DNA of 64,000 bases from Futiania mangrovi (GTDB taxonomy: Bacteria; Pseudomonadota; Alphaproteobacteria; Futianiales; Futianiaceae): the NCBI RefSeq assembly GCF_024158125.1, contig NZ_JAMZFT010000002.1:1054001-1118000 (forward strand), read 5' to 3'. Within the stretch, counting starts at the first letter, position 1. The number at the start of each line of letters is the position of its first letter. Made by a program: the position numbers and the translations under genes. This document shows, one piece after another, positions 5,696 to 58,815 of this stretch. Under the pieces are notes generated by a model that did not search any database, was not told where the DNA came from, and saw nothing but the letters and a program-made list of their open reading frames with translations.

Positions 5696-5846
5696 GACAA
5701 ACCGTAGCTTGCGACCCTAAGCCGATCAAGCAAAGATCGTTGCCTTGGACCCGCCTGTGACGGCAGAAGGGGCGCGTACGACCCCTCTGAACCTCGCCGA
5801 ATTCGGGCGGTTGCGGCCGATACCGGCTGCCAGAACGGAAAAACGC

Positions 5847-6623
5847 ATGACAGAACCGCAGTTCTCCGTCATCGAGCGCTTGCCGACCTACCGCCTCGTC
5901 TACAATGCGATCCAGAACGAGATCATGAGCGGCCGGCTCAACGTGGGCGACCGCTTGCCGTCGGAAACCTCGCTTGCCGAGCAGTTCGGCGTGAACCGCT
6001 CGACCGTGCGGGAGGGGATCAGGCTGCTGGAGGAGAGCGGGCTCGTCACCCGCAGCGGCGCGGGGCGCCCGCGTGTCGCGCTGCCGCACTTTCTCGACCT
6101 CGCGTCACGTGCGAGCCGCGCGCTGATCCTCCATTCCGTGACTTTCCGGGAGCTGTGGGAGGCCGCGGTAATCATCGAGCCGGCGACGGCCGAGTATGCG
6201 GCGACCCGGATCGACGAGGCCCATCTCGAACGGCTGGCCGCCAACATCGCCGCGATGGAAGAGATGGTCCTGACCGTGGAGAGCGGAGGCCGCGTGGACA
6301 CCGACGCCTTCGTCTCGCTCGACACGGAGTTCCACGAGATCATCTCGGAAAGCGCCAGCAATCGCGTCCTGGCGCTTGCGCGCGAGCCGGTCAGCAGGCT
6401 GTTCATTCCCGCCGGCCGGATCATGCTGCCGCGCCTCAACACCCATCGCCGGGTGCTGGTTGCGCACCGGCACATCTACGATGCGTTGCGCGGCCACGAC
6501 GCGCCGCAGGTGCACGAGTGGATGAAGCGGCACATGGAGGACTTCAAGCGCGGTTACGACGCGACCGGCCTTGCGATCGACATGGCGCTCGACGCCGCCG
6601 CCCTCGGCCAGACGGCTGACTGA
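5847..6623 (+). CDS. GntR-family transcriptional regulator, FadR/FCD subgroup
   Basis: A 258-residue regulator. The N-terminal winged helix-turn-helix (residues about 13-70) contains the GntR signature GDRLPSETSLAEQFGVNRSTVREGIRLL in pieces. It is followed by an all-helical FCD ligand domain with several His/Asp positions suited to metal or carboxylate binding. The ATG at 5847 follows a GGAAAA stretch and starts directly before the conserved region; the open frame extends further upstream without homology-like content. It is divergent from the acyl-CoA operon with the operator in the gap, so it is the likely local repressor. Confidence 0.93.
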   Translation: MTEPQFSVIERLPTYRLVYNAIQNEIMSGRLNVGDRLPSETSLAEQFGVNRSTVREGIRLLEESGLVTRSGAGRPRVALPHFLDLASRASRALILHSVTFRELWEAAVIIEPATAEYAATRIDEAHLERLAANIAAMEEMVLTVESGGRVDTDAFVSLDTEFHEIISESASNRVLALAREPVSRLFIPAGRIMLPRLNTHRRVLVAHRHIYDALRGHDAPQVHEWMKRHMEDFKRGYDATGLAIDMALDAAALGQTAD

Positions 6624-6695: not shown

Positions 6696-7097
6696 TCACA
6701 GTGCGGAGGCGATCGCCAGGTAGAGCACGATGAACAGGGGCGGCACGCCGAGGTAGGCGTCGCCGAACAGGAAGAGCTTCAGGAAGAAGAACAGGAACGC
6801 CCCGTAGAGCGCCACGGCGAACGGCAGCAGGAATGCCGGCGTCACCGGCCCAACGAGCGCCAGCAGCGGATCGGTGATCCGCCGCAGGACCGCGAAGAAG
6901 GCAATGTCCCGGTCGATGCCGATCACAAGCTCGAGTATCCCGCGGGAGAACAGCAGCGCCGCGAGCGCGGTCAGCGCATAGGTACCCCCGAGATAGACCG
7001 CCACCATGCCCGGCGCGCCGCCGAGCAGGAAGGTGGCGACGGCCATCGCATAGGTCAGCACGAGGATCACGATGCCTGTGAGGGCCGAGGCCTGCAT
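6696..7097 (-). CDS. Small integral membrane protein, possibly YggT-like
   Basis: A 133-residue hydrophobic protein with about four predicted membrane segments. The segment RRITDPLLALVGPVTP resembles the ITxPLLxPxRxxxP element of YggT-family proteins, but the match is partial, so I treat the family as tentative. It follows the solute symporter on the same strand but is separated from it by a strong terminator-like hairpin, so it is probably transcribed at a lower level or from its own promoter. The start at 7097 is chosen because the extra 18 upstream residues would be encoded by the terminator itself. Confidence 0.7.
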   Translation of the reverse strand: MQASALTGIVILVLTYAMAVATFLLGGAPGMVAVYLGGTYALTALAALLFSRGILELVIGIDRDIAFFAVLRRITDPLLALVGPVTPAFLLPFAVALYGAFLFFFLKLFLFGDAYLGVPPLFIVLYLAIASAL

Positions 7098-7120
7098 CAC
7101 TGTCTCCAGTTCCGGACAGG

Positions 7121-7151
7121 AAAAAGTGCAGGGCCCCGAGGGGCCCTGCAC
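7121..7151 (-). terminator. Rho-independent terminator after the solute symporter gene
   Basis: Read on the minus strand, GTGCAGGGCCCC pairs perfectly with GGGGCCCTGCAC across a very short loop and is followed by five T. This is a textbook intrinsic terminator placed 19 bp after the symporter stop codon. It is nearly symmetrical, but only the minus strand has the T tract. Confidence 0.85.
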
Positions 7152-7169: not shown

Positions 7170-9020
7170 TCAGTGCGTTTGCACCATGATACTCCCGCCC
7201 TTTGGCAATCGTAGTCGGTCCACGAAGTCCTGCATCTCCTGTGTCGGTGCAGGCGTGATGAGCGATACGAGATAGGTGACGATGAACGCCACGGGCACCC
7301 CGAACACGCCCGAGGAGATCGCCGCGACCCCGAACCACTTGATCTCGTCGCCGGACCCCTTCACGAAGTCGAAGCCGTAGACGTTGCCGACCAGGTAGTA
7401 GAGCGTCACGCCGAAGCCCGCGGCCATGCCGACGACCGCGCCGATGTTCGTCGTGCGCTTCCACCAGACCCCAAGCACGAGCGGCGCGAAGAGCCCCGCC
7501 GCCGCGAGCGAGAACGCCCAGGCCACCATCGACAGGATGTCCGACGGCTTGGTCCGGGCGAGGAACGCCGCCGCCAGGGCCACCACCACAAGGAGGATCT
7601 TCGCGACCATCAGGCGGCGCTTCGTGTCCGCCTTCGGGTCGATCATCTTGTAGTAGACGTCGTGCGAGAGCGCGTTGGCGATGGCGAGCAGCAGCCCGTC
7701 CGCCGTCGAGAGCGCGGCGGCGAAACCGCCGGCCCCCACAAGGCCCACGACCCAGATCGGCATGCCGGCAATCGACGGCGTCGACAGCACGATCATGTCG
7801 TTGTTGAGCCGCAACTCAGAGTAGGGGAAACCGCCGACCAGGCCCTTGCCTTCGCAGGCCGCGGTGATTGCCGCGACGCTTTCGGCCTTGGCGCCGCAGA
7901 TGGTGACGAGCTGGTGGCCCTCGATCGAGCCCCACGCCAGCATCCATTCGGGGATGGCGCTGAAGGCCAGCTGCAGACCCTCCGCATTCGCGAAGAGGCT
8001 CATCAGGTTCATCTTCGAGAACGCCGCATAGGCCGGCGCCGTGAAATACAGCAGGAAGATGAAGAACAGCGACCAGCCCACGGACTTGCGCGCCTCACGC
8101 ACGGTGGGCGTGGTGAAGAAGCGCATGAGGATGTGCGGCAGCGAGGCGGTGCCGACCATCAGGCAGAAGATCAGGAAGAAATAGTCACGGGGCGAATAGG
8201 TGGTGAAGGGCGCGACGTGCGACTTCGCCACGTTCAGCAGCTGTTCGTACTCCGCGATCTGCGTCAGCGCGCCGCCATAGGTCAGCTGCGGGATCGGGAA
8301 CCCGAACTGGACGGTCGACATCCAGATTGCAGGCAGCAGGTAGGCCACGATCAGGACGATGTACTGCGCAACCTGCGTCCAGGTCACGGCCTTCATGCCG
8401 CCCAGCATCGAGCAGACCAGGATGCCTGCGAGGCCCGCGAACACCGCATACTCGAAGGCGATGCCGAGGAACTGCGAGGCGATGATGCCCGAGGCGTAGA
8501 CCTGCGCCGTGATGTAGGTGAAGGAGCAGGCGAACAGGACGACGATGCCCACCAGGCGCGCGAGATTGCCGCCGTACCGGGTGCCGAGGAAGTCTGGCAC
8601 CGTGTAGGCGCCGAACTTGCGCAGGTAGGGGGCGAGCAGCACCGCCACCAGCACGTAGCCGCCGGTCCAGCCCAGCACGAACGCCAGCCCGTCATAGCCC
8701 AGCACGAACAGCGTGCCGGCCATGCCGACGAAGCTCGCGCCCGACATCCAGTCCGCGCCCGTCGCCATACCGTTGTAGACGGCAGGAACGGTGCGGCCGG
8801 CGACGTAGTATTCGGCAACCTGTGCCGTCCGTGACATGATGCCTATGAAGGCATAGATGCCAATTGTCGCGGCCATGTACATCCAAAGGATGAACCTGTC
8901 GGGAATTCCGACCATGGAAAGGATGGCCATCAACAGCACAAAGGCGGCAAAGCCGCCTACATATATGCCATAGATCTTGCCGAGATTGTCGGTGAAGTCG
9001 CCTTTCATCGAGAGTGCCAT
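7170..9020 (-). CDS. Sodium:solute symporter family protein (large subunit, ActP/VC2705-like)
   Basis: A 616-residue transporter of the SSS family with about 13 hydrophobic segments, including ATGADWMSGASFVGMAG and GGFAAALSTADGLLLAIANA, which match the core sodium/substrate helices. It contains an insertion with paired Cys (TICGAKAESVAAI) seen in the VC_2705 subgroup, which uses a DUF4212 small subunit; that partner is immediately upstream. Substrates in this subgroup are small monocarboxylates such as acetate or lactate; the exact one is not readable. The ATG at 9020 is preferred over the upstream in-frame TTG, which lies inside the small-subunit gene. Confidence 0.92.
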   Translation of the reverse strand: MALSMKGDFTDNLGKIYGIYVGGFAAFVLLMAILSMVGIPDRFILWMYMAATIGIYAFIGIMSRTAQVAEYYVAGRTVPAVYNGMATGADWMSGASFVGMAGTLFVLGYDGLAFVLGWTGGYVLVAVLLAPYLRKFGAYTVPDFLGTRYGGNLARLVGIVVLFACSFTYITAQVYASGIIASQFLGIAFEYAVFAGLAGILVCSMLGGMKAVTWTQVAQYIVLIVAYLLPAIWMSTVQFGFPIPQLTYGGALTQIAEYEQLLNVAKSHVAPFTTYSPRDYFFLIFCLMVGTASLPHILMRFFTTPTVREARKSVGWSLFFIFLLYFTAPAYAAFSKMNLMSLFANAEGLQLAFSAIPEWMLAWGSIEGHQLVTICGAKAESVAAITAACEGKGLVGGFPYSELRLNNDMIVLSTPSIAGMPIWVVGLVGAGGFAAALSTADGLLLAIANALSHDVYYKMIDPKADTKRRLMVAKILLVVVALAAAFLARTKPSDILSMVAWAFSLAAAGLFAPLVLGVWWKRTTNIGAVVGMAAGFGVTLYYLVGNVYGFDFVKGSGDEIKWFGVAAISSGVFGVPVAFIVTYLVSLITPAPTQEMQDFVDRLRLPKGGSIMVQTH

Positions 9021-9031
9021 CGTTCTGCTCC

Positions 9032-9298
9032 TCAATCTTCAGCGACGCCGAATTCCTCGTCTATCTTGTTCTGCCTGTGGGAGAACCAGAAGATGAGGAC
9101 GACGAAGACCACGAGCGAGCCCTGGGCTGCCATGTAGAAGCCCAGCGGAAAGCCGAAGATCACAATGCTGTTCAGAGACGTGACGAAGAAATGGATGATG
9201 AAGCTGAACACAGCCCAAATGGCGAGCGTCACCCACATGAGGTTACGCGTCTTCCCCCAATGAGCCTCCGCCTGTTCCGGCGGTAGCAATTCTGTCAA
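9032..9298 (-). CDS. DUF4212 protein, symporter small subunit
   Basis: An 88-residue protein with two membrane helices (about residues 22-42 and 50-72), ending in HRQNKIDEEFG, as is typical of DUF4212 sodium/substrate symporter small subunits. It uses a TTG start preceded by GGGGAGGG at about 7 nt on the minus strand. The stop is 11 nt before the large-subunit ATG, so the two are co-translated. A long hairpin lies in its 5' leader. Confidence 0.88.
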   Translation of the reverse strand: MTELLPPEQAEAHWGKTRNLMWVTLAIWAVFSFIIHFFVTSLNSIVIFGFPLGFYMAAQGSLVVFVVLIFWFSHRQNKIDEEFGVAED

Positions 9299-9325
9299 GT
9301 TGAGCCCTCCCCTTTTGATGCGCTT

Positions 9326-9354
9326 GGAGATATTGGAGGCACGCCAATATCTCC
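9326..9354 (-). promoter_or_regulatory. Leader hairpin upstream of the DUF4212/symporter operon
   Basis: GGAGATATTGG and CCAATATCTCC form a perfect 11-bp inverted repeat with a 7-nt loop. It lies 28-56 nt upstream of the TTG start. No T tract follows on either strand, so it is not an obvious terminator. It could be a protein operator or an mRNA-stabilising leader structure. Confidence 0.45.
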
Positions 9355-9492
9355 TCCCCCGCCAGTTTTAACTGTGCGCGCAAGTCCGGTTTTGTCGACC
9401 GGTTACTAGATTCGCGTTCGAGCCGCGGGGTAAACAGAAATGCGCCAGTTCATATTTGCGCAATCCCCGATTCCTGTCAATTATAGTCAAAA

Positions 9493-9510
9493 GTCGTAAG
9501 GCCTTACGAC
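9493..9510. promoter_or_regulatory. Perfect 18-bp palindrome, candidate operator
   Basis: GTCGTAAGGCCTTACGAC is perfectly self-complementary. It lies 48 bp upstream of the ATG of the plus-strand signalling operon and about 195 bp upstream of the symporter operon, in their shared divergent gap. The length and perfection suggest a dimeric regulator site; I cannot assign the regulator. Confidence 0.5.
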
Positions 9511-9557
9511 TGGGGTGTCCGGACGGGGCACAGTGTTCCGCGGACGGGGAGGATGCG

Positions 9558-10184
9558 ATGCGGGATCTGATCGGGTCGCTGCTGCCGTCGCGGCGGGCAA
9601 CGGACTGGCCGTCTGCCGTGGAGGCCATCCGCGCCGGTGCGGCCTATCTCGCGCAGGGCGCGAGCTATTCGTACCTGCGCGCGCGCACGCTGCTCGCGGG
9701 TCCGCGGCTCTTCCAGGACGCCGACTTCGGCTTCGCGCTCGATGTCTGCAAGTGGGAGGCGTTCGGCGTCGCTGCGCAGGACCTGATCCTGATGATCGAG
9801 GCGGAGCTGCGGCCGTCGCTGCCTGTGGATGCGCGCCTGCGCGCGGCCGGGCTCGCCCGCCTGTATCGCGAGGTGATGGAGAGCGAGGCCGTGCCGCCGC
9901 ATCGCGCCGGGCGGGGCTGGGACGACCTTTATTCGGAGTTCGACGCGCGCCTCGCGGTCTTTCTCGCCCGCCCGCCGCTGAAGCCCGACGCGATCTCGAT
10001 TGCAACCGCCCTGCGTCTCCTGGACCATGCACCGATAGAGGACAGCGTGCGCGAGGCTGACCGCATGATGGTCGTGAACAACACCGCCTTCCGGTTCATC
10101 GAGTACCAGGCGAAGCTGCGCCGCACGCTCGACATGCGCGCGCTGGCCGCCCTGCTTGCGCAGCGGATGACGGACGCCGCGTGA
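9558..10184 (+). CDS. Hypothetical protein upstream of the nuclease/CBS/DUF294 gene
   Basis: A 208-residue soluble protein I do not recognise by name. It is mostly helical, with a Trp-rich middle (CKWEAFG, GRGWDDLYSEFDARLAVFLARPP) and a basic helical C-terminus. The ATG at 9558 is preceded by GGGGAGG at good spacing, and its stop overlaps the next ATG (TGATG), so it is co-translated with the CBS/DUF294 protein. Genes in this position beside DUF4212/SSS symporters are commonly uncharacterised, and a role in symporter regulation is inferred only from context. Confidence 0.8.
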   Translation: MRDLIGSLLPSRRATDWPSAVEAIRAGAAYLAQGASYSYLRARTLLAGPRLFQDADFGFALDVCKWEAFGVAAQDLILMIEAELRPSLPVDARLRAAGLARLYREVMESEAVPPHRAGRGWDDLYSEFDARLAVFLARPPLKPDAISIATALRLLDHAPIEDSVREADRMMVVNNTAFRFIEYQAKLRRTLDMRALAALLAQRMTDAA

Positions 10185-12319
10185 TGCGGGCATCCTCGGC
10201 GGCTCCGCTCATCGCGCTCGATGTGGTCGTCATGGATACCGAGACGACCGGCCTCGACGTGCGCCAGGACCGGATCGTCCAGATCGGTGCGCTGCGGATG
10301 CGCGGCGCCGATATCCTCGACGGCCACGCGCTGGAGCTTTTGCTCGACCCGGGCGTGCCGATCCCGCAGATCGCAACGCGCATCCATGGGCTGGCGGACG
10401 CCGACGTGGCGGGAAAGCCGGGCTTCGCCTCCGCGGTGCGGGACTTGCGCGACTTCATCGGCGACAGCGTCGTGGTCGGCCATTCGATCCAGTTCGACCT
10501 CGCCATCCTGCGGCACGAGGCACGGCGGCACGGCATCCAGTGGGAGGAACCGCGGGCGCTCGACATCGCGCTGATGGCGGCGGGCCTCGACCGCGAACTG
10601 GTCGACACGTCGCTCGACAGCCTGGCGCTGGCCCACGGCGTCGCGATTTCGGGCCGGCACACCGCACTGGGCGACGCGACGGCGACGGCCCGCGTCTATG
10701 CCGCCATGCTGCCGCCCCTCATGGCGCAGGGCGTTCGCACGCTGGGCGAGGCCGAGGCGGTCAGCAGGCGCGCCGGCGACCTGATCGCGCGCCAGGAGCA
10801 CGCGGGCTGGTACGACCGGCCGGGAGAGCGGCCGAGCCTCGCGCAGTCGGCGCTCGAAGCCGGGGGGCAGCGCGCCATCGACAGCTTTCTCTACCGCCAG
10901 CGGCTGGGGGACGTGATGACGCATCCGGTGCTCACCGTCGCGGCGGACGCGCGGCTGCACGATGCCGCTGCACTGATGCACGATAAGGGCGTGGGCTGCC
11001 TGTTCGTCCATGCCGGGGATGAGACCGGCATCGTGACCGAGCGGGATGTCCTGCGTCTCTTCGCGCTCGAGGGCGGGGCCGCGGCCTCCGTCCCGGTCGG
11101 CGAGGTGATGAGCGCGCCCGTGATCGCTGCCCCGGCGGACACATTCCTCTACCGCGCGCTCGGGCTGATGGCGCGCCGCAATTTGCGCTACATGGGCGTC
11201 ACAGATGCCGGCGGGCGCGTGACGGGCCTGTTCACGCTGCGCACGCTGCTGCGCGAACGGGCGCTTGCCACGCTCACGGTCGGCGACGAGATCGCGGTTG
11301 CCGGGACGGCCGGAGAACTTGCGCGGGTCCAGGCGGCACTTCCCGATCTTGCCGGGGGGCTGCTGGCCGACGGGCTGGAGGCGCGCGCCGTCGCCGCCGT
11401 GATCGCGGCGGAGGGCCGTGCGATGACCGCCCGCGCCGCTGAGATCGCGGAGGCGGAACTGGTCGCGGAAGGTGCGGGGCCGGCGCCTGCCGACTACGCG
11501 CTCCTCGTGCTAGGTTCCGGCGGGCGGGGGGAGAGCCTCCTCGCCCCCGACCAGGACAATGCGCTGGTCGTCGCCGACAGCTATGCGGGCGATCTCGACG
11601 CGCCCGGCGACTGGTTCACACGGTTCGCCGTGCGCTTCACGGAGATCCTCGACCAGGCGGGAATTCCGCTGTGCAAGGGCGGCGTCATGGCGCGCAACCG
11701 GCCCTGGCGGCGGCGGCTGTCGGAGTGGCGCACCCAACTCGAGGCCTGGTCGCACAAGCCCGAACCGCAGGCGCTGCTGAACGTCGACATCTTCTACGAC
11801 TTCGCGCCCGCGCACGTGTCTGCGCATGGCGCCGCCCTGGCCGAGGCGTTGCGCATGTCCGCGACCGAGACCGCGCGCGCCTCGCCGGGCATGCTGCGCA
11901 CCATGGGAGAGCTGGCGGGCTCGCACGCGGCCCCGCTCGGCTTCTTCGGGCGCATCCGCAAGGACGACGCCGGACGTGTCGACCTGAAGTCGGGCGCGCT
12001 CCTGCCGATCACGGCGGGCGCGCGCGTGATCGCGATGCGCCACGGGATTACTGCGCTCTCGACGCCCGAGCGGTTCCTGCAGGCGGCCCGCGCGTCAGGC
12101 CGCAGCGAGACCGATGCCGCCATGATGGCCGAGGCGCACGGTCTCATCCTCCGCCTTGTGCTCACCCAGCAGATCGCCGACATCGCGGCCGGCATCCGTC
12201 CGGGCAACCGTGTCGACGTCGCGGCGCTCGGGCGGCTCGACCGCGATCACCTGCGCGAGGCGCTGGGGCGCATCGACACGATCCGCGAGATGTTGCGGGA
12301 CATGCTCGCAGGCATCTGA
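10184..12319 (+). CDS. 3'-5' exonuclease domain + CBS pair + DUF294 nucleotidyltransferase fusion
   Basis: A 711-residue three-part fusion. Residues about 10-180 are a DnaQ-like DEDD exonuclease with MDTETTG (Asp18, Glu20), HSIQFDLAIL and HTALGDATATARVY. Residues about 235-365 are two CBS domains (DVMTHPVLTV, GEVMSAPVIAA) that usually bind adenine nucleotides. The C-terminal part is a DUF294 putative nucleotidyltransferase with LVLGSGGRGESLLAPDQDNA, resembling the GlnD active-site loop, plus its helical partner domain. CBS-DUF294 proteins often neighbour ActP-type symporters; the exonuclease fusion is less usual. It probably senses energy state and modifies or regulates a partner protein (inference). 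Confidence 0.9.
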   Translation: MRASSAAPLIALDVVVMDTETTGLDVRQDRIVQIGALRMRGADILDGHALELLLDPGVPIPQIATRIHGLADADVAGKPGFASAVRDLRDFIGDSVVVGHSIQFDLAILRHEARRHGIQWEEPRALDIALMAAGLDRELVDTSLDSLALAHGVAISGRHTALGDATATARVYAAMLPPLMAQGVRTLGEAEAVSRRAGDLIARQEHAGWYDRPGERPSLAQSALEAGGQRAIDSFLYRQRLGDVMTHPVLTVAADARLHDAAALMHDKGVGCLFVHAGDETGIVTERDVLRLFALEGGAAASVPVGEVMSAPVIAAPADTFLYRALGLMARRNLRYMGVTDAGGRVTGLFTLRTLLRERALATLTVGDEIAVAGTAGELARVQAALPDLAGGLLADGLEARAVAAVIAAEGRAMTARAAEIAEAELVAEGAGPAPADYALLVLGSGGRGESLLAPDQDNALVVADSYAGDLDAPGDWFTRFAVRFTEILDQAGIPLCKGGVMARNRPWRRRLSEWRTQLEAWSHKPEPQALLNVDIFYDFAPAHVSAHGAALAEALRMSATETARASPGMLRTMGELAGSHAAPLGFFGRIRKDDAGRVDLKSGALLPITAGARVIAMRHGITALSTPERFLQAARASGRSETDAAMMAEAHGLILRLVLTQQIADIAAGIRPGNRVDVAALGRLDRDHLREALGRIDTIREMLRDMLAGI

Positions 12320-12396: not shown

Positions 12397-13515
12397 TCAC
12401 GTCCGACGGATCCCCTGCGCGAGGGAAAGCGCAAGGCTGACGAGTTCCGCTTGCCGATGGGTGTCCGTCTTCGCCATGGCGTTCTTCAGCAGAGTACGCG
12501 CGGTGTGGAGTGCGATGCCCGCTTTGCCGGCGTGGGCGGCGGGGCTGTCGCCACGGCAGAGCGCTGCCGTCAGCAGCGCCTCCGCCGGCGTGAGGCCCAG
12601 GCAGGCGGCGATCAGGGCGGGGTCGGGCGCGGCGGGGCGCGGTTCGAACAGGCGAAGCAGGACAGCGGGACGGCGCGTGCCCTCCCCGATGCTCGGCGGC
12701 AGCGGCAGCGCCTCGGCCAGCAGGGGTGTGCCCGTCCTGTCGCGGGCGATGGAGACGATGGCGCTGTCCGGGCCGCGGCCGGGGCGGGCTTGACCGGCCA
12801 GGAGCGCGTCGAGCCTGGATGTGTCCACCGGGCGGTCGCATCGCAGGCGCCCGTGGCTGAGGCGCAAGCCGTCGCCGGCAGAGAGCAGCGCCGCGGCGTC
12901 CGCGTTCGCGCGCAGCACGCGCCCGTCATGGCCGAGCAGGATCACCGCGCCTGCAAGCCTGTCCAGCAGCGCATCCAGCACGGCCTCGGTCCGCGCCATG
13001 CGTCCGATGATGCGGTGCAGGCGCAGTGCCTTGACGAGATGGGGGCCGAGGCTGGCGAGACGATCGCGCTCGGCGCGGGTGAAATGCCCCGCCCGCCGGC
13101 CCCTGCGCACGATCATGTAGGTGGAGCGGTCGCCGCTGCGCTCCAGGTCGATACCGAGCAGGTGGACGGACTCCAGCGGCAGGTAGAAATCATTGTAGAT
13201 CTCGCTGCGTTCGTAGGCCTGCTGGTCGGGATAGTCGGCATCCGTGTAGGCGAGGCCGAGCGGTACCGACTTGAAATAGGCGAAGAGGGGGCTCAGCGGT
13301 GCGTAGTACGCCTCGTAGGCGTGCACCGTGTCCTCGGGCACGGCAACCGCATGCGCCCGCACGGTGGCCGTTCCCGTGCGCGTCTCCTGGTGGATGAGCG
13401 CGGCCTGGGCACCGTGAAACGTGCGCGCAAGGTCGCCCGCGAGCGCTGACCAGCCTTCGTCGATCACGGTGTCGTAGATGCGCGCAATCAGCTCCGCAGG
13501 AGGTGAAGCCGCCAT
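12397..13515 (-). CDS. LuxR-family transcriptional regulator with N-terminal sensory region
   Basis: A 372-residue protein. The C-terminal 60 residues form a LuxR-type helix-turn-helix: LGLTPAEALLTAALCRG, then GIALHTARTLLKNAMAKTDTHRQAEL in pieces, where the T-H-R-Q-A-E-L ending is characteristic. The central part (about residues 185-260) reads like a PAS-type fold (GAVILLGHDGRVLRANADAA). The N-terminal 180 residues are a sensory domain of unknown ligand. I see no autoinducer-binding signature or receiver domain. The start is the ATG at 13515, one codon after an in-frame GTG. The target is unknown; an imperfect palindrome lies upstream. Confidence 0.85.
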   Translation of the reverse strand: MAASPPAELIARIYDTVIDEGWSALAGDLARTFHGAQAALIHQETRTGTATVRAHAVAVPEDTVHAYEAYYAPLSPLFAYFKSVPLGLAYTDADYPDQQAYERSEIYNDFYLPLESVHLLGIDLERSGDRSTYMIVRRGRRAGHFTRAERDRLASLGPHLVKALRLHRIIGRMARTEAVLDALLDRLAGAVILLGHDGRVLRANADAAALLSAGDGLRLSHGRLRCDRPVDTSRLDALLAGQARPGRGPDSAIVSIARDRTGTPLLAEALPLPPSIGEGTRRPAVLLRLFEPRPAAPDPALIAACLGLTPAEALLTAALCRGDSPAAHAGKAGIALHTARTLLKNAMAKTDTHRQAELVSLALSLAQGIRRT

Positions 13516-13586
13516 CACAGGATCCTCTGGCGCCGGTCTGGCGCCCCCGAACCTACGCCGCCCAGGACATCACTCCACGCAAACCT

Positions 13587-55769: not shown

Positions 55770-57671
55770 TTACCTTGCCCGCACCGCATCTCCCTTCTTC
55801 AACTGGCCGGCGCCCAGCCAGGTGAAGGTAGCGAGGCAGACGACCAGCAGTGGATATTCCAGCGGAATGCTCTCCACCTGCCTCAGTGTTAGATAGGCAA
55901 AAGCCGAGATCGCTGCGACTGCGGCGATAAGACGTTCGGTGCTGCTCAGTCGGCGCAGCGCATGCCCGTAAATCGCTGCGGAAAGTGCGATCAGCGCGAT
56001 GGGCATGGTGACGAGTGCCCCAAGCGCCCAATCCCAGGACACGACCTCAAGCCGCAGGACGGGGTTGAACACCATGAAGAAAGGAATGATGAAGCCCGAC
56101 AGCGCCAATTTGAACCCCTTCGCTGCGCTCAGCATGTAGCGGCCACCCGACAGCGCCGTAGCGGCCAGCGTGCCGAGTGCGACGGGCGGGGTCACGGCGG
56201 ACATGATCGCGAAGTAGAAGGCGAAGAAGTGCGCCGAGATCGGCGACAGACCCATCTTGACGAGCGTCGGGGCCGCCGTGATCGCGACCAGGCTGTAGGC
56301 CGCTGCCGGCGGCACACCGCAGCCGAGGATAATCGACACGACCATGGTAATCAGCAGTGCAATTATCAGGTTGCCACCGCTAAAGGTCTCCACGAGGCCG
56401 GCGATCTTCGATCCCAGGCCGGTGGAGATCAGCGTCTGGGCGATTAGCCCGACGACGGCCAGGGACACGGCGATTTTCGAGCCGACAACCGCGCCGCGCG
56501 CCAGGCAGCGCAGCGTCTCGGCAAGGGAGGGCCGGTCCCTGCGCATCTGGCCGATCGCCAGTGCGGTCACGATGGCCCAGAACGCGGCGACGTCGGGCGA
56601 ATAGCGCATCAGCAGCAGCGTAATGATCACGCCGAGCGGCAGGACGAATGCCGGGCTGCGGTTGAGGATCAGCCGGTAGTCCGGCTTCTCGGTGGGCGCA
56701 AAGATTCCTTCCTGAACGGATGCGAAGTGCACCGAGACCAGCACGCCGAGGTAGAAGAGCAGAGCCGGCAGGATACCGAGCAGCATCACGTCGACGTAAG
56801 GTACGCCTATGAAGAAGGCCATGAGGAAGGCGGCCGCGCCCATGACCGGCGGCATGAGCTGGCCGCCGGTCGAGGCGGTCGCCTCGATGGCGCCGGCAAG
56901 CTCGGGCGAATAGCCGGACCGCTTCATGTAGGGGATGGTGAAGGCGCCCGTCACCGCGACGTTCGCGACCGATGCACCCGTGATCATGCCCACGAGCGAA
57001 CTCGAGACCACCGCGGTCTGTGCAGGTCCGCTGCGCACCCGCCGGCCGACGATTTTGCCCACCTCGCTCAGGAAGTCGTCGATGCCAAGAACGGCGAACA
57101 GCGCGCCAAACACGACGAAGAGAAAGATCTGGTTGGCGGAGATCGACAGGAAGGTCCCGTAGATGCCCGTGAGGCCGACCGAGAGATAGGAGATGACGTA
57201 GCCGAATGAGAACTCGCGGTGGTAGAGCGGCCCGGGCAGAAGGTGACCCAGAAAGAAGTACAGGATGAAAACGCCGGCAACGATCGGAAGGATCAGCCCC
57301 CAGCTTCGCCGCGTCGCCTCGATCACTGCCACCATCAGGATGACGCCGGCGGCCATGTCGACCGGTTCAGGAAAGCCGAGGACCATGTTGAGATGATCGA
57401 TGTTCATCGCGACATAGGTTGCTGCACCGAGACCTGCCGCTGCGATCGTCGTCTGCACAATCCGTGCAATCGTCCCGCTGGCGCCGAAACCCGAGACGAG
57501 CACGATGAAAATCGCGAATGCCAGATGCACGCTCTGGTGGACGAAGGTCGTCACGAAGAAGCCCTGGCTGACAACCATATGGTAAGCCACCATGCCGCAA
57601 CCGGCGGCGACCGTGAGTAGGTCGGCGATACGGCGCGTATGTGTCTGGGTGGCGGGCGGCACCGAATCCAT
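55770..57671 (-). CDS. TRAP transporter permease, fused 4TM/12TM type (TAXI system)
   Basis: A 633-residue permease in which the small and large TRAP subunits are fused, with about 17-18 helices: MKRSGYSPELAGAIEATAST, GGQLMPPVMGAAAFLMA and CGVPPAAAYSLVAITAAPTL are family blocks. The start at 57671 has GGAG upstream on the minus strand. It works with the TAXI binding protein encoded immediately upstream. It is a separate system from the DctPQM importer 2 kb away. Confidence 0.93.
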   Translation of the reverse strand: MDSVPPATQTHTRRIADLLTVAAGCGMVAYHMVVSQGFFVTTFVHQSVHLAFAIFIVLVSGFGASGTIARIVQTTIAAAGLGAATYVAMNIDHLNMVLGFPEPVDMAAGVILMVAVIEATRRSWGLILPIVAGVFILYFFLGHLLPGPLYHREFSFGYVISYLSVGLTGIYGTFLSISANQIFLFVVFGALFAVLGIDDFLSEVGKIVGRRVRSGPAQTAVVSSSLVGMITGASVANVAVTGAFTIPYMKRSGYSPELAGAIEATASTGGQLMPPVMGAAAFLMAFFIGVPYVDVMLLGILPALLFYLGVLVSVHFASVQEGIFAPTEKPDYRLILNRSPAFVLPLGVIITLLLMRYSPDVAAFWAIVTALAIGQMRRDRPSLAETLRCLARGAVVGSKIAVSLAVVGLIAQTLISTGLGSKIAGLVETFSGGNLIIALLITMVVSIILGCGVPPAAAYSLVAITAAPTLVKMGLSPISAHFFAFYFAIMSAVTPPVALGTLAATALSGGRYMLSAAKGFKLALSGFIIPFFMVFNPVLRLEVVSWDWALGALVTMPIALIALSAAIYGHALRRLSSTERLIAAVAAISAFAYLTLRQVESIPLEYPLLVVCLATFTWLGAGQLKKGDAVRAR

Positions 57672-57719
57672 CGGCTGTCTCCGGGCTGAGCGGCGCTTGG
57701 CGGCGCTTGAAAGAAGACA

Positions 57720-57741
57720 GGGCGGACCCATGGGTCCGCCC
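57720..57741 (-). terminator. Intercistronic hairpin between TAXI binding protein and permease genes
   Basis: A perfect 22-bp palindrome with arms GGGCGGACCCA and TGGGTCCGCCC. On the minus strand it is followed by a pyrimidine-rich CTGTCTTCTTTC. It is probably a partial terminator or stability element that raises binding-protein over permease levels. Confidence 0.6.
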
Positions 57742-57761: not shown

Positions 57762-58760
57762 CTACTTGACGAGACCTGCCTCCCGATAGGCGCGCAGGGC
57801 GCCCGGATGGATGCGGTCCGCGCTCCAGCCCGAGGTGAGCGCCTCCGCCGACATCAGCTTGCCGAGAGAATGGTATTCGGCGAAGGAACCCACATTGTCG
57901 ATGATCGTCTTCGTGACCTTGTAGGCGAGTTCCTCGTCAAGCTCCGGATAGGCCATCCAGGCAACGGCGTCGAAGAAGGCTGGTACCGGGATGTCGAGCC
58001 CGTCGACCGAGCCGGGCTTCACGGTGATGGGAGAGATCGACACGCCGGCCGCGATCGTATCGGCGACTGCCTTCTCGCCCCACGGGATGTGGTGGAGTGT
58101 CCGTCCCGAGGCGAGCAGCTCCACCGTCTGCGGGCTCGGCAGGAACTTGCCCGTGCCGGGGTCGACATATCCGCCGATGATGGCCGCATCGACGTGACCG
58201 TTCAGCAGCGCATCGGCCGCCTCCTTGGTGCCGAGCGTCTCAATGTCGATCTTGTCCTCCAGCCCCCAGCCGTGCCGGATGATCAGGCGCGGCTCGATGG
58301 TCCAGAGGATCTGCGGGGGGCGGCCCAGCGCGATGCGCTTGCCCACGAGGTCCTGCGGCGTCTTCAGGGTCTCGTCGAAGGTCGCGAGCCACACCACCCC
58401 GAGATTGTAGTTGGCGATTAGCATCGCGGAGGGGAGCGTTTCCTTGAACGGGGGCTCCCCGTTTGTGGCCAGGTAGTTGATGCCGGCCGTGAACGCCATG
58501 ATGGTGTTCTTCTTCGCGTCCGGCTCCTTGTTGAGCTTGTTCGCGTTGAAGACCAGGCCCGGCGTTTCGGTCGAATTGATCTGGACGTCCGTGGCCTTGG
58601 CCTTCGAGATCTGCTCCAGCGCGTTGGCAAGAACATAGCTCCCGGTCCCGAAGGGGCCGCTGATGAGGTCCACCGAGGCGTTCTGCGCCGGGGCCGCCGT
58701 TGCGATGGCGACCAGGCCGGCAGCCATCGCTCCTGCCCGGATCCAGGTGACGAGCCGCAT
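57762..58760 (-). CDS. TAXI-family TRAP transporter solute-binding protein
   Basis: A 332-residue periplasmic protein: signal peptide GAMAAGLVAIATAAPAQ, then the TAXI signature SGPFGTGSYVLANALEQISK and a C-terminal HPGALRAYREAG. TAXI proteins bind small carboxylates such as glutamate or 2-oxoglutarate. The second ATG (58760) is used since GGGAGG lies at proper distance. The divergent IclR gene probably controls it. Confidence 0.92.
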   Translation of the reverse strand: MRLVTWIRAGAMAAGLVAIATAAPAQNASVDLISGPFGTGSYVLANALEQISKAKATDVQINSTETPGLVFNANKLNKEPDAKKNTIMAFTAGINYLATNGEPPFKETLPSAMLIANYNLGVVWLATFDETLKTPQDLVGKRIALGRPPQILWTIEPRLIIRHGWGLEDKIDIETLGTKEAADALLNGHVDAAIIGGYVDPGTGKFLPSPQTVELLASGRTLHHIPWGEKAVADTIAAGVSISPITVKPGSVDGLDIPVPAFFDAVAWMAYPELDEELAYKVTKTIIDNVGSFAEYHSLGKLMSAEALTSGWSADRIHPGALRAYREAGLVK

Positions 58761-58815
58761 GTTCATCTCCTCCCGTCGTGTCGACGCCTTAAGCTTGCAA
58801 GGTGACGTCTTGTTA

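Follow-up and report, generated by a model that had tools for sequence, protein, structure and literature searches.

A symporter locus of Futiania mangrovi as a possible alphaproteobacterial version of the CrbS/CrbR short-chain carboxylate module

What does a protein that joins an exonuclease, a CBS pair and a nucleotidyltransferase do beside a divergently transcribed sodium symporter, and does the perfect palindrome between the two transcripts have a part in it? Both lie in a 64,000-nucleotide stretch of Futiania mangrovi (Alphaproteobacteria; assembly GCF_024158125.1, contig NZ_JAMZFT010000002.1, positions 1,054,001 to 1,118,000), hereafter the window, whose first base is position 1 of all coordinates given here. 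We assign a probability of about 0.55 to the reading in which this locus represents the CrbS/CrbR (MxtR/ErdR) module for short-chain carboxylates in an alphaproteobacterial form and controls the symporter. At the level of sequence, comparison with relatives establishes a conserved gene order, a site of the type that CrbR binds (ACTU) in most of the relatives that own CrbR, and crbR and crbS genes adjoining the locus in some genomes; the palindrome is, on the genomes compared, the least conserved part of the locus. The features concerned are as follows (aa, amino acids; ORF, open reading frame; bp, base pairs; pLDDT, predicted local distance difference test score).

6696-7151, minus strand: small protein of membrane type, 151 aa, 3' of the symporter genes; ORF with no Pfam match
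7170-9020, minus strand: sodium:solute symporter large subunit, VC_2705 family; TIGR03648 at 686 bits (cut-off 320.75), PF00474
9032-9298, minus strand: symporter small subunit, DUF4212; TIGR03647 at 96 bits, above cut-off, PF13937
9482-9499, plus strand: TATAGTCAAAAGTCGTAA, the top-scoring ACTU-like match between the divergent genes (3.8 bits, not significant at p = 0.49 in 200 shuffles); it overlaps the left arm of the palindrome
9492-9511, no strand: 20-bp perfect palindrome AGTCGTAAGGCCTTACGACT, ending 46 bases 5' of the ATG (9558) of the 208-aa gene
9558-10184, plus strand: P0001, all-helical 208-aa member of an unnamed family; ORF, AlphaFold2 mean pLDDT 93
10181-12319, plus strand: P0002, 712-aa fusion of a DEDDh 3'-5' exonuclease, CBS pair, DUF294 and DUF294_C; ORF

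The initial annotation of the window had described a nuclease-CBS-nucleotidyltransferase fusion divergent from a symporter, and both the ORFs and the Pfam domains bear this out: the minus strand carries the symporter genes (7170-9298), and the DEDD exonuclease appears as an RNase_T (DEDDh) domain. The domains of P0002 are RNase_T at residues 16-173, a CBS pair at about 243-358, DUF294 at 386-530 and DUF294_C at 570-706, and the genes of P0001 and P0002 overlap at their stop and start codons (10181-10184), which would fit translational coupling. The label "ActP-like" for the symporter proved loose: the symporter matches both models of the VC_2705 family (TIGR03648 and TIGR03647) and stays far below the cut-off of the ActP equivalog TIGR02711 (148 versus 1099 bits).

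A module of this general kind is described from Pseudomonas. Judging from published descriptions, the P. putida operon PP_0354/PP_0353 (PFLU5625 in P. fluorescens) resembles the window in bringing together a CBS protein and an RNase_T exonuclease; PFLU5625 is annotated with a nucleotidyltransferase domain, as in P0002, and P0002 carries the pattern of CBS pair, DUF294 and DUF294_C of a PP_0354/PFLU5625-type signalling protein (Pfam). The CBS/nucleotidyltransferase gene (PFLU5625, PP_0354) is reported as a target of CrbR/ErdR, through a site named ACTU (PMC5715377, PMC8402216), and ErdR is reported to bind the PP_0354 promoter (PMC8402216). The exonuclease PP_0353 is placed in the same operon as PP_0354, and both PP_0353 and actP-I are described as affecting growth on pyruvate (PMC9927547), while homologues of PP_0354/PP_0353 adjoin actP/yjcH in P. 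aeruginosa PAO1, and the acetate two-component system controls the promoter (PMC9927547, PMC8402216, PMC5715377). The Pseudomonas operon differs in having two genes, CBS protein then exonuclease, where the window has one fused protein with the exonuclease first. PFLU5625 is moreover reported with a cyclic AMP-binding domain, whereas Pfam found no domain binding cyclic AMP or another cyclic nucleotide (cNMP) in P0002 or P0001, and the window has the 208-aa protein as an extra partner. Carboxylate uptake under CrbS/R, accompanied by a CBS/DUF294 protein and an exonuclease, is already known; the form seen here differs in its fused enzyme, the lack of a detected cNMP domain, a new helical partner, the symporter family and the ACTU-like site in Alphaproteobacteria. 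In the literature examined, no function is assigned to the DUF294/CBS proteins or to the exonuclease that accompany ActP-type symporters, even though in Pseudomonas the acetate regulator acts directly on their promoter. Open-licence literature gave no paper pairing DUF294 with ActP and none naming DUF4212, and the DUF294 listings held none on this gene pair; the 208-aa family, being unnamed, was not searchable.

To what extent does this neighbourhood recur? A search for related loci returned 30, and the counts here use the 26 with a CBS/DUF294 match of at least 40% (L021-L046), leaving out L047-L050, which were more distant or matched by the exonuclease only. Going by the frame of each match, 14 of these loci encode a fused exonuclease-CBS-DUF294 protein and one more (L033) encodes a fused but interrupted one, eight have the exonuclease and then CBS/DUF294 as two adjacent or overlapping genes (ORFs checked in L044 only), and three have CBS/DUF294 with no adjacent exonuclease. 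Since the two parts are side-by-side genes in other loci, the P0002 fusion joins two neighbours. In 20 of the 26 loci P0001 occurs together with the DUF4212 symporter subunit, the two genes being divergent, so that the association of the CBS/DUF294 protein with the symporter, suspected in the initial annotation, holds up across relatives; L033, where a contig end truncates the locus, has P0001, and neither gene was found in L030, L032, L034, L039 or L043. In L030 and L032 the P0002 homologue lies near genes for propionyl-CoA carboxylase and methylmalonyl-CoA mutase (L030 by Pfam, L032 by eye). The P0001 family was found in 60 of 385 alphaproteobacterial genomes, our own included, and in the loci of the 30 best of these genomes all 29 copies besides our own are divergent from DUF4212, as is likewise the case in another set of 11 loci. 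Removal of near-duplicates left 38 orthologous gaps besides that of the window, and an exonuclease and/or CBS/DUF294 match lies near 28 of these 38 within the often short stretches compared. Because P0001 is divergent from DUF4212 in all these loci and the enzyme accompanies it in 28 of 38, P0001 is tied more closely to the symporter than the enzyme is, and the comparison thereby points to this unnamed 208-aa family as the closer companion of the symporter.

Excluding the window, we searched the 38 non-redundant gaps for symmetric motifs by expectation-maximisation from random starts. The best de novo motif, AATTAGACTATAGTCTAATT / ATTCGACTATAGTCGAAT (weak columns in capitals), matches the ACTU site of CrbR/ErdR when compared by eye with the sites tabulated in PMC5715377, and its log-likelihood ratio of 83 compares with 33.0-39.8 for shuffled sets (n = 5). 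When the sequence under test was kept out of training, a site at p <= 0.05 was present in 16 of the 38 gaps, where about 2 were expected. CrbR orthologues were sought with our own CrbR-like protein in 39 genomes (the 38 and our own) at E <= 1e-45, a cut-off set after seeing a break between 1.6e-50 and 2.3e-42. An ACTU site was found in 14 of the 16 genomes with CrbR and in 2 of the 22 without (Fisher p = 1.3e-6). This association persisted when the CrbR match of L022, cut by a contig end (72% over 61 residues), was counted (14/17 versus 2/21, p = 7e-6), when the doubtful sites of L021 and L091 were dropped (13/16 versus 1/22, p = 1.3e-6) and at alternative cut-offs of 1e-50 and 1e-40 (p from 2e-6 to 1.2e-5; 4e-5 at 1e-50 with L022 counted). 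The ACTU-like site is in this way extended to alphaproteobacterial symporter loci and tied to the presence of CrbR.

Gene linkage in some genomes agrees with this association and puts crbR and crbS physically into the same cluster. In L040, L041, L042, L044, L045 and L046, crbR lies directly after CBS/DUF294 with crbS facing it, which is the arrangement of the Reyranella-type loci; in L084 it follows the P0001 homologue, with crbS facing; and in the Hoeflea-type loci L021, L022, L025 and L029 crbS lies about 5 kb downstream. L039 and L109 are further crbS/crbR neighbourhoods. L109 is the second locus of the L031 genome and carries a second DUF4212/symporter copy beside crbR and near crbS, with no P0001 or P0002 match in its 3.7 kb.

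Does Futiania mangrovi itself own such a regulator? Its genome has three SSF matches. Two are the window symporter, and the remaining one forms the N-terminal part of a hybrid kinase of 1208 aa (open frame 1219 aa). This CrbS-like kinase has PAS_7, HisKA, HATPase_c and Response_reg domains, with SSF 28.6 bits above cut-off, although the domain scan at 1e-3 did not list SSF for it. The CrbR-like regulator (252 aa, Response_reg and GerE; L063:7767-8525, minus strand) is convergent with the kinase gene and overlaps its end. The same arrangement, an SLC5 hybrid kinase convergent with a LuxR-type regulator, is described for crbS/crbR of S. fredii NGR234, where CrbS/R is reported to be needed for growth on acetate; that paper makes no mention of ACTU or DUF4212, and the motif that it maps belongs to RpuR (PMC9100948). 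The genome of F. mangrovi holds this one CrbS/CrbR-like pair, about 290 kb from the window genes, so that crbS/crbR and the gene pair are not linked in it. The DNA-binding region of its CrbR is 82-86% identical to the counterparts in L105-L109, with the common stretch SEATVKAHVSAILQKL, and the protein would be predicted to recognise the same half-site.

Put together, the favoured reading takes the 208-aa helical protein and the 712-aa fusion, which lie divergent from the DUF4212/TIGR03648 sodium symporter, to be a cytoplasmic control pair, and the CrbS/R of the genome would switch both transcripts on with acetate, pyruvate or a similar acid. In the window CrbR would act through a remodelled site overlapping the palindrome. 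Less surely, the CBS pair may read adenine-nucleotide charge, the nucleotidyltransferase may AMPylate the symporter or the 208-aa protein and so tune uptake, and the exonuclease may trim RNA or nucleotide products. The suspected regulation of the symporter becomes in this form two directly testable claims, namely binding by CrbR and AMPylation of the symporter or its partner.

The proposal of a remodelled site draws on sequence and position. By eye, TACGACT occurs in each arm of the palindrome; one of the tabulated ACTU matches (PFLU0447; PMC5715377) has this as its half-site. Of the 14 positives that own CrbR, 6 (L026, L040, L044, L046, L084, L100) have their best ACTU site ending 35-43 bases ahead of the start codon, and in the remaining 8 it lies at 4 or 62-162 bases, with start codons of relatives extrapolated from the protein match. 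At 46 bases the palindrome is near the first of these groups, which counts in favour of a remodelled site; its arms are inverted relative to ACTU, and binding as a normal ACTU dimer is therefore not implied.

Several observations weigh against CrbR control of the window and against the module as a whole. The best ACTU match of the window is not significant (3.8 bits, p = 0.49, 200 shuffles), its best half-site was equalled by 446 of 1000 shuffles, and the ACTU consensus with at most one mismatch is not enriched in the genome (9 sites versus 19 for the reversed control); by eye and unscored, no ACTU precedes the genome's own acs gene. Among relatives, 22 of 38 have no significant ACTU site, and the sites of L021 and L091 are doubtful by position (in L021 the start codon follows after 4 bases). 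Nor are the positives independent: L010, L097, L100 and L101 form one family and the Reyranella-type loci another group, so that by our estimate they amount to five or six independent lineages and not 14. The fused gene of L034 stands near Rieske-oxygenase-type genes with no symporter and no link to carboxylates. In Pseudomonas, deletion of PFLU5625 is reported to have a negligible effect on acetate (PMC5715377) and deletion of PP_0354 no effect on acetate, succinate or pyruvate (PMC9927547).

What, then, might the enzyme do? The residues D19, E21, D106, H160 and D165 of the exonuclease (a DxE, D, HxxxxD pattern) and S446, G448, R449, D457 and D459 of the nucleotidyltransferase (a Pol-beta GS...DxD site) are invariant in 11 of 11 aligned fused sequences, and we take both sets to be catalytic from general knowledge of these families. 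The AlphaFold2 model of P0002 has a mean pLDDT of 76, with the CBS region poor. Residues from about 4 to 200 match DnaQ/PolC exonuclease folds (Z 22-25), and among the 50 VIA-align matches listed three cover the C-terminal half, comprising two GlnE transferase domains (1v4a, Z 23.4, root mean square deviation 3.7, 325 residues aligned; 3k7d_B, Z 22.7, root mean square deviation 4.1, 317 aligned) together with an AMPylating enzyme of bacterial origin (Z 22.6, 293 residues). GlnE was not among the 50 Foldseek matches listed, which the exonuclease part fills. P0002 is like the glutamine synthetase adenylyltransferase GlnE in its arrangement of nucleotidyltransferase and helical C-domain (Z 22.7-23.4) and unlike it in sequence (12-14% identity) and in having CBS and exonuclease domains where GlnE has a second transferase. 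The comparison thus gives the nucleotidyltransferase a GlnE-like fold. As all three matches to the C-terminal half are protein adenylyltransferases, protein AMPylation is the most economical activity for P0002, and the model suggests that P0002 is likely a protein AMPylator gated by adenine nucleotides bound at the CBS pair. A shared GlnE-like fold does not by itself show function; that the fold is that of a protein adenylyltransferase does make a test for AMPylation sensible.

P0001 had no Pfam or NCBIfam match, and 28 members of its family yielded just four single weak Pfam matches; its fold had no Foldseek match at E <= 0.001 and a best VIA-align Z of 6.3, and no sequence relative was found among solved structures at E <= 1. 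It is accordingly a protein with no convincing solved relative, and a missing match does not prove a new fold. A stronger version of the favoured reading, which we consider rather doubtful, would make P0002 a dedicated CBS-sensed AMPylator of the sodium/monocarboxylate symporter that works on the 208-aa protein or through it, comparably to GlnE and its target glutamine synthetase under PII. Energy charge would then set the uptake of acetate/pyruvate-type acids post-translationally while CrbS/R would set the transcription of the module, with the 208-aa family as the missing adaptor in place of the gammaproteobacterial cNMP sensor.

Is the palindrome then the operator of this system? An 18-bp perfect palindrome had been reported in the gap, and GTCGTAAGGCCTTACGAC is indeed present at 9493-9510, although its true length is 20 bp (9492-9511). 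It had also been called too long and perfect to be chance, a judgement that fails for the window as a whole: dinucleotide shuffles of the 64 kb (n = 60) averaged 0.78 palindromes of at least 18 bp and 0.22 of at least 20 bp, with at least one such palindrome in 57% and 18% of shuffles, respectively. Within the 259-bp divergent gap the palindrome is rare, as 31 of 20,000 shuffles reached 18 bp and 8 of 20,000 reached 20 bp. Its absence upstream of orthologous operons had been named in the initial annotation as one half of what would speak against it, and absence is what we found, since the longest perfect palindrome across the 38 orthologous gaps is 14 bp and the inner 18 bp, with at most one mismatch, occur in 1 of the 385 genomes, namely our own. 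A conserved regulatory element is therefore not supported (no counterpart in the 38 gaps or in the 384 other genomes), with the window's own order represented by one genome among those compared. A scan of 9290-9570 gave no terminator and no adjoining sigma-70 promoter site. A repeated operator was likewise rejected, the palindrome being single-copy in its genome and its 14-bp core with two mismatches occurring at 4 further sites versus 15 for the control.

Two other accounts of the palindrome have to be weighed against a remodelled CrbR site. It is possible, though on balance we think it unlikely, that it is an ordinary lineage-specific operator bound by a different dimeric regulator, whether repressor or activator, and that the gene pair lies outside CrbR control here. 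The perfect 20-bp symmetry in the divergent gap (the 8 in 20,000 above), the lack of a significant ACTU site in the window and a nearby gene for a GntR/FCD regulator (5745-6623) would fit such an operator, but the core has no second genomic copy beyond the 4 sites versus 15 just given, the arms contain the ACTU half-site by eye, and the end of the palindrome, 46 bases from the start, is close to the 35-43 bases of the 6 in 14 positives. A functionless chance or drifting sequence is in our view an equally tentative alternative. It gains from the expectation of 0.22 palindromes of that length per 64 kb and from the pattern in relatives, with none longer than 14 bp in the orthologous gaps and no second case among 385 genomes; it loses from the improbability of such symmetry within 259 bp (8 of 20,000) and from the scarcity of perfect palindromes elsewhere in the window. 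Those of at least 14 bp number 4 against 8.9 expected from shuffles, that is, they are half as frequent, and palindromes thus seem to be avoided in the window.

For the enzyme, it is also conceivable, if improbable, that the exonuclease is the regulating part and degrades mRNAs of carboxylate metabolism or transport, a role on which Henriquez et al. speculated in the case of PP_0353, with CBS/DUF294 only controlling the exonuclease. The only growth phenotype reported points this way, P. putida growing more slowly on pyruvate without PP_0353 and not without PP_0354 (PMC9927547), as do the exonuclease-type residues, invariant in 11 of 11; yet the nucleotidyltransferase site is equally conserved, and L036 and L037 have CBS/DUF294 beside the symporter with no exonuclease match in the locus (L037 is cut by a contig end). 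A toxin-antitoxin or defence unit of nucleotidyltransferase and helical partner (MNT/HEPN-like) is very improbable, for although DUF294_C is reported to share a Pfam clan with HEPN (PMC3710099) and the small partner is helical, the synteny with the symporter is conserved, in some genomes also with crbS/R, and the nucleotidyltransferase fold is near GlnE.

ORFs of 133-136 aa that look similar to the 151-aa protein stand at the matching place in relatives (L024:2456-2866, L028:2469-2870 and L031:2474-2881, by eye from ORF starts), and this small membrane-like ORF 3' of the symporter gene may be a further symporter subunit. The GntR/FCD regulator gene lies at 5745-6623, beyond that ORF, and on the other side of the locus a 373-aa minus-strand ORF (12397-13518) beside the operon looks by eye like a LuxR-type regulator, with no Pfam or NCBIfam match at 1e-3. 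A longer perfect palindrome of 22 bp, GGGCGGACCCATGGGTCCGCCC, occurs at 57720-57741, across the ATG of a minus-strand ORF of 653 aa (55770-57731) that resembles a TRAP-type permease and lies just downstream of an ORF for a TAXI-type solute-binding protein (57762-58766; families by eye); this palindrome could act as a hairpin controlling translation.

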